A DNA stretch of 64,000 nucleotides from Spirochaetales bacterium (GTDB lineage Bacteria > Spirochaetota > Spirochaetia > DSM-27196 > Alkalispirochaetaceae), in NCBI GenBank assembly GCA_028282545.1, contig JANQHT010000070.1, positions 1 through 64,000 on the forward strand, written 5' to 3'. Within the stretch, counting starts at the first letter, position 1. Every line of letters begins with the position of its first letter. Position numbers and translations under genes: made by a program. The notes beneath the pieces are model-generated. The model was not told the DNA's origin. It saw only the letters and a list, made by a program, of their open reading frames with translations, and searched no databases. Shown here piece by piece: positions 39,170-42,092 of this stretch.

Positions 39170-39805
39170 TCACTTCCGGCCATAATTGTTCAAAGGGCGG
39201 AGAATCGTGATCTTTCCACGACCGGTTTCAAGCGATCCTCGGTTTTCCAGCTCTTTTAACGTTCGATTCACCGTCTCGCGACTCAATGATAACCGATGGG
39301 CGATTTCTTCTTGCGTGACTGTGATTTGAGATTCATTGTTCTTATTGGTGAGAAGAAACTGGACAACTCGGTCCCGTGCCGACGACAGACTGAGGTGCTT
39401 GTGGAGCCGGTAGTATTCACGGGCAAGGAATTGCGACATGTTTTCGGGGAAACGGGACACAAGATCCCGAGTCGCTGACACACCGAAGGTAGCGGTATAG
39501 CAATCGGGGGCCGCACAGGCGTCTGAAAGATATGGACCCGCCGCGACTGTTTCGGCTAACCCTATCCATTCACCCGGTTCGACCGTGCGAACGAGCAATC
39601 GTGAGCCATCCAATCTCCATTTGGACAATTCGGCCATTCCGGCGACCACCAGCCTCGCCGCGTCCGCCAGGTCGTCTTGGTATTCGATGTGTTTCTCGCG
39701 TCGAAACTCTTCAATCCGAAATGAGGGGAGATTTCGTGCGAATATACGGCGGTCGTTTTGACCAAATGCGTCGGCGATACGTTCGATGATCTCCGATTGT
39801 TTCAC
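39170..39805 (-). CDS. Crp/Fnr-family transcriptional regulator
   Basis: This 211-residue protein has a cyclic-nucleotide-binding-type beta-roll (about 25-120) and a C-terminal winged HTH ('VTQEEIAHRLSLSRETVNRTLKELENRGSL', in part; about 162-195). No Fnr-type Cys cluster is seen at the N-terminus. The GTG start overlaps the stop of the FliM-like gene (GTGA), so it is translated with it. Such coupling suggests that it regulates with, or in response to, the motor-switch-like protein. The signal is unknown. Confidence 0.88.
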   Translation of the reverse strand: MKQSEIIERIADAFGQNDRRIFARNLPSFRIEEFRREKHIEYQDDLADAARLVVAGMAELSKWRLDGSRLLVRTVEPGEWIGLAETVAAGPYLSDACAAPDCYTATFGVSATRDLVSRFPENMSQFLAREYYRLHKHLSLSSARDRVVQFLLTNKNNESQITVTQEEIAHRLSLSRETVNRTLKELENRGSLETGRGKITILRPLNNYGRK

Positions 39806-40947
39806 GAGGAGAGTCCCGCAAGCAGGCCGAGGAGTTTCCGAAGGTATCGGTACGGGTAGGTAACCGTGAGGTTGCCATTGTCGGCCTGCAAACGAACGAA
39901 GACTACCATTTCAAAGTCTTCGAGGAAGTCTTGCCGAAGCGGTGTCTGCCAATCGGTCTGGTCGGCGAATTGAACGGGAAACAAGCGCCCCCAACTGTGT
40001 TCGAGCGCGGACGTTACCAGTTCAACGGGAAGCTGGTCGGGCGTACCGGACCACCCTATCAGAACTCGTTCAAGGGGCAACGCCGTAGCCATATCGTGCG
40101 CCCGTTGTCGGAATTTCCGATCCCAATCGGGATCGCTTTTCCCAGTGTCTAGATCGTTGAAGTACTCAATTTCTTGATCCGCGCGGGACCGCGAACCGTC
40201 GGTGACCGTGTACCCTGCCGAGAGTTCGGAGAACGAAGCGCCAGGGTCCACAAACTCCGCGATCTCATGCCAGGCAATTTGATCGACGAGCCGAAGCGTT
40301 ATCGATCGAACGTGGGGTACAAAGTTCGCGAGGCGGTCGGCGATGGTATTGTGCAGGACGGCCAGCGCGTGGATCTGGTCCCGGCTGAAACGGTCCGGCT
40401 TGCTGAAATCGTAGATCTTGAGGTCGTCTGGGACGCCGGTAGGCATTGTCCCAATGCCTTGGTTCCATCCATCAGCAACAACGTCCGTGATTTGGATACC
40501 CCAAAACTCACCCGATATCACGGGCACCCCAACCGCGACGACTCCTCCGAAAACGGTCAGCTCCGCTACAACTCCACGCGGGTCACCTGTGACCGCTGAG
40601 AGAACCGATCCGGCACCGAGTGAACTCAACGTCCGCGCGTCAACGCGCCCGGACCATAAACGGAGTTCGATGGGCAGTTGATCCAACAAACGCTCGGTGC
40701 TCAGACGACCGGGAAGGCTCTTGGGTTTCCAATCGCCGTCGAAAATCTGAAAGAACCACCGATCGTCTTTTTTGTAGACTTCGACAAGCGCAAGCTCGCG
40801 ACCGTTGCAAGTGATCGTCGCGGGTTCGCCGGGGCACCGATCCAATAGAAGGACAACGGACCCGACTTCGAGTTTTCTCAGTTGGGCGGGCGACAGATGA
40901 CCTTTTGCGAGGATAATCTCCAGATTCGTTTCACCAACGGTTTTCAT
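39802..40947 (-). CDS. Domain-permuted FliM/FliN-like protein (SPOA-SPOA-FliM core)
   Basis: This 381-residue cytoplasmic protein has two SPOA domains first: residues about 8-70 ('LEVGSVVLLLDRCPGEPATI') and about 87-155 ('LPIELRLWSG..LGAGSVLSAV..GIQITDV'). The FliM core follows, beginning 'KIYDFSKPDRFSRDQIHALAVLH' (in part; about 178-200) and ending with a FliM-like 'EMVVFVRLQADNGNLTVTYPYRYL'. In canonical FliM the YDF..P.RFS block is near the N-terminus and a single SPOA domain is at the C-terminus, so the order here is reversed and SPOA is duplicated. AGGAG precedes the ATG. It could be an alternative switch component or a FliN/SpaO-like adaptor. It is coupled to a Crp-family gene, not to a flagellar operon. 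Confidence 0.75.
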   Translation of the reverse strand: MKTVGETNLEIILAKGHLSPAQLRKLEVGSVVLLLDRCPGEPATITCNGRELALVEVYKKDDRWFFQIFDGDWKPKSLPGRLSTERLLDQLPIELRLWSGRVDARTLSSLGAGSVLSAVTGDPRGVVAELTVFGGVVAVGVPVISGEFWGIQITDVVADGWNQGIGTMPTGVPDDLKIYDFSKPDRFSRDQIHALAVLHNTIADRLANFVPHVRSITLRLVDQIAWHEIAEFVDPGASFSELSAGYTVTDGSRSRADQEIEYFNDLDTGKSDPDWDRKFRQRAHDMATALPLERVLIGWSGTPDQLPVELVTSALEHSWGRLFPVQFADQTDWQTPLRQDFLEDFEMVVFVRLQADNGNLTVTYPYRYLRKLLGLLAGLSS

Positions 40948-41161
40948 TTCGTGACTCCTGCAGGTTTGATTGCCGAATGAGATTGTGTCGCCAAATCCTC
41001 AGTTCATCCGTTCGATACGTCTATGATGTTCGTCACATAGTACTGAAATTTCGCCGTTCCCAACGCGGCGGCGGCACGCGTAGTAAAGCCTCGTGCGCGA
41101 AGGAGCCGCGGTCGCGATGACGGCGGTCCGGTGCGAGTCGGCAATGGTTCGCGTATAGCCT

Positions 41162-41236: not shown

Positions 41237-41611
41237 CTACCGGTCCGGGGCGGGGTCTGCCGCGTAGAGAACGACACCGCGCTGATTGATGGACGTTTGA
41301 ACGTGTTCGGGAACGCAGGCGATCGTGACGATGTCTACGTCGAACTCCGATTGCTCGGCAATCTCCATGGCGCGGAAGAGGTCACCCCCGTCGATTGCAA
41401 GATCGATATCGAAGTGTGGTGTCGGGGGCGATCCGTCGGCGAGTGAACCGAAGAGAACGACGCGCTGTACCGACGGGTCCCCCGAGGCGATCTTTGCGGC
41501 GAGGCGGGCTGCCTCGGCTCGTGCAAGCTCCGCTCTCCGCGCGATTGCCCGGGCCTCCCGCTCGTTCTCCGCGCGTATTCCGGTAGCGTACGATTCCGGA
41601 TCAAAGGGCAT
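41237..41611 (-). CDS. MNT-type nucleotidyltransferase antitoxin
   Basis: The 124-residue protein has the minimal nucleotidyltransferase motif: 'VVLFGSLADGSPPTPHFDIDLAI' (in part; GS at about 55 and DxD at about 68-70), followed by a second strand with 'FDVDIV'. An N-terminal helix-rich arm precedes it. The ATG at 41611 lies inside the end of the HEPN gene (11-nt overlap). In HEPN-MNT modules the nucleotidyltransferase AMPylates or otherwise silences the HEPN ribonuclease (family knowledge). Confidence 0.85.
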   Translation of the reverse strand: MPFDPESYATGIRAENEREARAIARRAELARAEAARLAAKIASGDPSVQRVVLFGSLADGSPPTPHFDIDLAIDGGDLFRAMEIAEQSEFDVDIVTIACVPEHVQTSINQRGVVLYAADPAPDR

Positions 41612-42092
41612 CGGCGATCGCCTTGAGCTTTCGGCAGTAGTCACGGTGGAGTTCCGGAAAGCGTGCAAAAAAGCGAACGACGATTTCCTGGACCGCCGCC
41701 GTCTTCCCGGGATCGAGATCCTCGCCGTAGAGGTGGCGGAAACGGTGGCGAAACCGCAGGATCTCCCGTACGTCGCGACTCTCCCCCGGTGCAACGAGAA
41801 AGGCCGGCCGCAGGTTGGGGATATCGAGTGCCATTCGTTCGACCAGGGCATGGTGCCACCGGTGGCCGGGCAGGTTGTTTTCAAAGGCTTTGGAAACGCG
41901 GAGGAAGTAGTTTTCCAGTACGCCGTAGAGCGTATAAATCGTGTAGCCCAGGGCGCCCCAGTCGATGGGACCGTCGGCACCGTTCCGGATACGCTGCCAT
42001 GCGGTGCGATTTCGCGCGAGAAGTCGGTCTATTTCGGCGGCGTCGCCCACCAGTTCCTGGACGAGCGTCGTTAGGGAGGCGCTGGTTCGCAT
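41601..42092 (-). CDS. HEPN-domain protein (toxin partner of MNT)
   Basis: This 163-residue all-helical protein has the HEPN layout, with a conserved late motif 'RFRHRFRHLYGEDLDP' (about residues 111-126) that includes an R-x4-H pattern like the HEPN active site, and an earlier 'YTLYGVLENYFLRV'. It comes first in a two-gene unit overlapping the MNT gene. Together they form a type VII-like toxin-antitoxin module. Both genes lie between two copies of a 70-bp direct repeat. Confidence 0.75.
   Translation of the reverse strand: MRTSASLTTLVQELVGDAAEIDRLLARNRTAWQRIRNGADGPIDWGALGYTIYTLYGVLENYFLRVSKAFENNLPGHRWHHALVERMALDIPNLRPAFLVAPGESRDVREILRFRHRFRHLYGEDLDPGKTAAVQEIVVRFFARFPELHRDYCRKLKAIADAL

Follow-up and report, generated by a model that had tools for sequence, protein, structure and literature searches.

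A SPOA-SPOA-FliM protein encoded in tandem with a CRP-family regulator in divergent spirochaetes

Results

Genes and domains at the locus

We analysed a 64,000 nucleotide stretch of DNA from a Spirochaetales bacterium (contig JANQHT010000070.1, positions 1 to 64,000; hereafter the window), which carries two tightly coupled genes on the minus strand. The first gene (39802..40947, ATG start) encodes a protein of 381 aa, and an AGGAG ribosome-binding site, read directly from the sequence, is located 7 nt upstream of the ATG (40955..40959). Its stop codon overlaps the GTG start codon of the second gene within the four bases GTGA. This second gene (39170..39805) encodes a CRP-family regulator of 211 aa. 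A predicted CRP-type operator, TGTGA-CGAACA-TCATA, lies on the same strand at 41022..41037, 90 bp 5' of the start codon of the first gene, and is kept in sequence and position in relatives. The region directly upstream (41240-42092) encodes a nucleotidyltransferase (Polbeta) and, as its partner, a HepT-like protein; the two probably form an MNT/HEPN toxin-antitoxin module.

The 381 aa protein has the architecture SPOA-SPOA-FliM middle domain, i.e. the FliN-type domain is duplicated and N-terminal. Pfam detects the SPOA family FliMN_C in two stretches (1.7e-11; 44.4 bits, passing the cut-off of 23.8). The best stretch corresponds to the first SPOA domain (residues ~8-68, 40744..40926), which is preceded by no more than about 7 residues. 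The FliY model and FliN structures also detect the second one (residues ~95-158, 40474..40665). In profile comparisons with HHalign both domains are closest to the FliN/FliY-type SPOA and not to FliM's own SPOA. The remainder of the chain (residues ~175-379, 39811..40425) is a FliM middle domain according to Pfam/NCBIfam and profile comparisons. Pfam and NCBIfam place the beginning of the FliM similarity at 175-231. PF02154 (FliM) itself gives only a short match here (179-230) that with 22.7 bits stays just below the 27-bit cut-off, while three relatives exceed it (G461 49.6, G530 31.4 and G408 29.2 bits). Using the aligned members, HHalign covers the whole middle domain of canonical FliM with a probability of 99.8, E-values being pairwise in these comparisons.

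These matches bear out the earlier note, which had proposed two SPOA domains before a FliM core with the YDF..PDRFS block and had made the FliM similarity of the second half a point to be checked. Its description of the protein as a canonical FliM in reverse order is correct as far as the SPOA domain is placed in front and duplicated. The second half is, however, the middle domain alone with no SPOA following.

Structure prediction added to this picture for the FliM half. A model of the window protein built from three sequences reached a pLDDT of 42.7 and was set aside. For the model of the relative in genome G162, Foldseek returned FliM middle-domain crystal structures as best matches, followed by CheC/FliY. 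This model is confident in the FliM half alone and is biased by the FliM rows in the alignment, such that we consider it supportive but not independent. The predicted structure of the SPOA-SPOA half was poor, and the assignment of this half to FliN/FliY-type SPOA domains rests on sequence profiles.

Tandem SPOA domains are also a feature of the injectisome sorting-platform protein SctQ/SpaO, from which the protein could in principle derive. A weak SpaO_YscQ match at residues 9-52 points in this direction, though it reaches 17.4 bits where the cut-off is 100.8. The opposite domain order, the recognisable FliM middle domain and the lack of secretion genes nearby mostly refute such a descent, which we regard as highly improbable.

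Motifs lost and kept with respect to FliM

In canonical FliM the N-terminus binds CheY through an EIDALL motif. An EIDALL-like N-terminus is missing throughout the family described below, including the window sequence. Likewise, no SPOA domain follows the middle domain: the chain stops where FliM's SPOA would start, and its C-terminus is the final middle-domain helix. FliM binds FliG via a GGxG motif (PMC6700473). This motif is missing in all 11 members of the family; the canonical FliM proteins of the same genomes have the FGG block in 11 of 11 cases. The middle domain still has the YDF..RPD block at its start, the VDQ block and the final strands.

A family scattered over the phylum

A first look in the named genome collection did not confirm any relative of the gene. 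A whole-genome search then provided a full-length homologue of 25% identity with the same domain order in another family, and further members were found by profile. SPOA-SPOA-FliM proteins are a real family of 11 divergent members from 11 spirochaete genomes in 10 families of the phylum (G000, which is the window genome, G242, G162, G367, G404, G589, G443, G530, G408 and G582, as well as the more distant G461). Their domains have diverged strongly (22-25% identity) and their occurrence is patchy, with 10 of 393 evenly drawn phylum genomes above the search threshold. Two of these hits, in G403 and at a second locus in G404, turned out to be other FliM proteins. In a tree of FliM domains, which has long branches, ten members are found on one side (support 97/89) while the G461 member branches elsewhere. 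Because its branch is long, a second origin of this member is only possible.

Most host genomes are drafts, and that of the window is 86% complete and fragmented into 165 contigs, so that one may think of an assembly or frame artefact. Independent genomes, among them G582 in 3 contigs, share both the architecture and the neighbouring gene, which refutes this explanation and leaves it with a negligible probability.

Canonical FliM and FliY are encoded in all 11 host genomes. The window genome, for which the earlier note had suggested looking for these genes, carries FliY together with FliM on contig C154. G162 has in addition a second FliM copy (locus L190, contig C66; a 337-aa frame with 254 bits). 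None of the 11 SPOA-SPOA-FliM genes resides within a flagellar operon, and the genes beyond the pair with the CRP gene vary among the genomes. A prior description of the module was not found in the open-access papers searched.

A dedicated CRP-family partner

A CRP-family gene is located directly downstream in 10 of the 11 loci, overlapping by a few bases or following within roughly 40 nt. The coupling to a Crp-family regulator outside the flagellar operon that had been noticed in the window is a property of nearly the whole family. Scores against the profile of the paired CRPs are 142-356 bits for these CRPs themselves and at most 67 for the other CRPs of the same genomes. Since the profile has one to six matches per genome, a chance neighbour would be improbable for a single genome and can be neglected for ten. 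The pairing is also obligate when seen from the regulator: in the 393 phylum genomes all eight true members of the CRP subfamily adjoin a SPOA-FliM gene. A ninth match to the CRP profile (G552) was an ordinary FNR-type gene. When the canonical fliM loci of the 11 genomes were subjected to the same scan, neither CRP nor AraC genes were found nearby (0/11).

The G461 gene branches apart and lacks the CRP neighbour, such that this partner is not universal. It is preceded by an ECF sigma factor gene and by a gene whose product weakly matches the anti-sigma-like zf-HC2 (L169, 6683-8978). Its neighbours thus again belong to transcription control, with a possible anti-sigma gene among them.

The window CRP matches cNMP_binding (33.1 bits) and HTH_Crp_2 (52.4 bits), both over the cut-offs, and the paired CRPs share an HTH_Crp domain with an RETVN(R/K) recognition helix. 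All 10 paired CRPs lack the phosphate-binding cassette GE(L/I)...R(S/T) of cAMP-binding CRP. The cAMP-contact residues (G-E-L...R-S/T) are typically replaced by G-x-x-E...L-x-D. With the residues for the cAMP phosphate replaced throughout, cAMP is unlikely to be the signal. FNR-type regulators often lack the cAMP cassette too and sense small molecules instead.

Such a dedicated regulator has to be considered when weighing a structural role of the switch-like protein. As an accessory part of the C-ring or the export platform, its tandem SPOA would insert into or cap the FliN layer or bind FliH, altering motor assembly or switching, and the CRP would do no more than control its expression. The FliN/FliY type of both SPOA domains, the preserved FliM fold and the presence of canonical FliM and FliY in 11 of 11 genomes are in agreement with this. 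A structural component, on the other hand, needs no dedicated co-inherited regulator, and the GGxG motif, the CheY-binding N-terminus, the C-terminal SPOA and a place in a flagellar operon (0/11) are all lacking. We therefore consider an accessory part a serious candidate but a rather unlikely one.

A conserved operator sequence before the gene pair

An unbiased dyad search of the 300 bp upstream of the genes gave TGTGA-N6-TCACA as the top motif, found in 8/11 sequences (3-4 in shuffles). Allowing at most 2 mismatches, it occurs 82-114 bp before the start codon in 9/10 CRP loci, and for 8 of these 9 a shuffled upstream sequence was equally good in at most 0.8% of the trials. The G367 promoter has the seven-base-spacer version alone, as judged by eye from the printed sequence. 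Upstream of the G461 gene, at the locus without CRP, the motif is absent. Six loci (L069, L164, L165, L167, L168 and L170) show a third half-site, similar to TTCAYA and ~8 bp downstream of the operator.

We infer that the paired CRP binds the predicted operator from its RETVN(R/K) helix, from the position at which the site is kept and from the co-occurrence of both. Exact operator copies are scarce genome-wide; in G242 the single one is that at the SPOA-FliM locus. The operator resembles the Rex motif, and the other exact sites in G162 and G582 precede Rex-like genes (gene identity by eye). Given few sites in the exact-site searches and an extra pair of sites that in two genomes fronts a Rex-like gene, a wider CRP regulon is not claimed.

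An autoregulated pair could also serve a purely local, non-flagellar role, in which the switch domains would be a protein-binding scaffold for an unrelated signal. This would fit the variable genes around the pair and the low identity of the domains. It is difficult to reconcile with the conserved YDF..RPD and VDQ blocks of FliM and the canonical fliM and fliY genes in all hosts, and we judge it to be improbable.

A parallel arrangement with AraC-family regulators

Many related spirochaetes carry another operon of switch parts, composed of SPOA1, SPOA2 and a fusion of the FliM middle domain, SPOA and the FliG middle/C-terminal part. Such fusions of about 540-627 aa were found at L024 (2687-4396), L025 (2328-4124), L027 (3424-5283), L029 (2473-4095), L039 (7577-9415), L071 (5801-7633), L171 (5626-7506), L173 (5396-7186), L174 (4690-6525) and L175 (2354-4219), generally with two small SPOA genes before and an AraC-family regulator alongside. 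An AraC-family gene lies within 3.5 kb of 13/15 FliM-FliG fusion loci, the two exceptions being near contig ends. This parallel suggests a repeated linkage of switch parts to transcription factors.

The gene order SPOA2-FliM in the AraC operons equals the domain order in the SPOA-SPOA-FliM protein. A correspondence of its first SPOA to SPOA1 of these operons was not supported, as both domains are nearer to the second, FliN-type one. At L072 (G242) and L171 (G404) the FliM portion of the fusion groups with the genome's own canonical FliM, as if copied or converted locally.

Discussion

The most plausible reading of the locus, to which we assign a modestly favourable probability on the basis of sequence comparisons, is an autoregulated two-gene module in which a switch-derived protein governs its partner CRP, probably by reporting the state of the motor base. 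The first gene would provide a protein made of flagellar switch parts, in which two SPOA domains of FliN type, probably paired within the chain, precede a FliM middle domain devoid of the motifs for FliG and CheY. The second gene, apparently translated together with the first, would provide a dedicated CRP-type transcription factor with replaced cAMP-pocket residues. Binding of the CRP to TGTGA-N6-TCACA before the operon would result in autoregulation. The switch-derived protein as input most likely binds and controls the CRP as output. The SPOA and FliM surfaces would then probably report on the motor base, for example through the free pool of FliN/FliM or through engagement with the C-ring or the FliH export platform. 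Alternatively, the CRP may do no more than regulate the operon, the switch-like protein having its function elsewhere.

Of the three roles considered in the earlier note, the best supported is that of a switch protein repurposed for regulation, because the CRP neighbours 10/11 members, its subfamily was never found without the gene in the 393 genomes and a CRP-type operator precedes the operon. A variant C-ring component that replaces FliM is less likely, given the loss of GGxG, of the N-terminus that binds CheY and of the C-terminal SPOA, and given canonical FliM/FliY in 11/11 genomes. The protein may alternatively act as an adaptor on FliN or FliH.

More tentatively, the locus may belong to a class of spirochaete modules in which dedicated transcription factors receive their input from duplicated switch proteins serving as sensors (CRP with SPOA-SPOA-FliM; AraC with SPOA, SPOA and FliM-FliG; in one case an ECF sigma factor), so that assembly or occupancy of the motor base is read directly into expression. 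If true, parts of the rotor ring were copied to become gene regulators, perhaps repeatedly within a single phylum, and kinase-free sensing of motor assembly would become directly testable. The permuted, duplicated switch architecture and the FliM-FliG fusions are moreover useful for studying the rearrangement of switch parts.

Among known proteins, FliM shares with the window protein the middle domain including the YDF..PDRFS and VDQ blocks (profile probability 99.8), and FliM middle-domain structures are the best fold match for the G162 relative. In contrast to canonical FliM, the window protein has neither the CheY-binding N-terminus nor GGxG nor a C-terminal SPOA, carries two SPOA domains in front and is encoded outside the flagellar operon. 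FliN and FliY are the best matches for both SPOA domains, which are, however, arranged one after the other in a chain that continues into a FliM middle domain, unlike the stand-alone SPOA protein of flagellar operons. SctQ/Spa33/SpaO, described as the equivalent of a FliM-FliN fusion, also holds two SPOA domains in one chain, where they form an intramolecular pair (PMC4832279). By analogy, the tandem domains of the window protein likely pair in the same way. In SctQ an N-terminal domain precedes the two SPOA domains and the gene belongs to an injectisome cluster, whereas here the order is opposite and the gene partner is a transcription factor. With CRP/FNR regulators the partner CRP shares the cNMP-binding fold, HTH_Crp with the RETVN(R/K) helix and the predicted TGTGA-N6-TCACA operator; it differs by the replaced cAMP-contact residues and by its tie to the SPOA-FliM gene. 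Finally, the checkpoint two-component systems FlgSR, FlrBC and FleSR link transcription to the MS ring, rotor and export apparatus (PMC7064773). There a histidine kinase system depends on the assembled structure, whereas the present module pairs a CRP with a protein derived from the switch.
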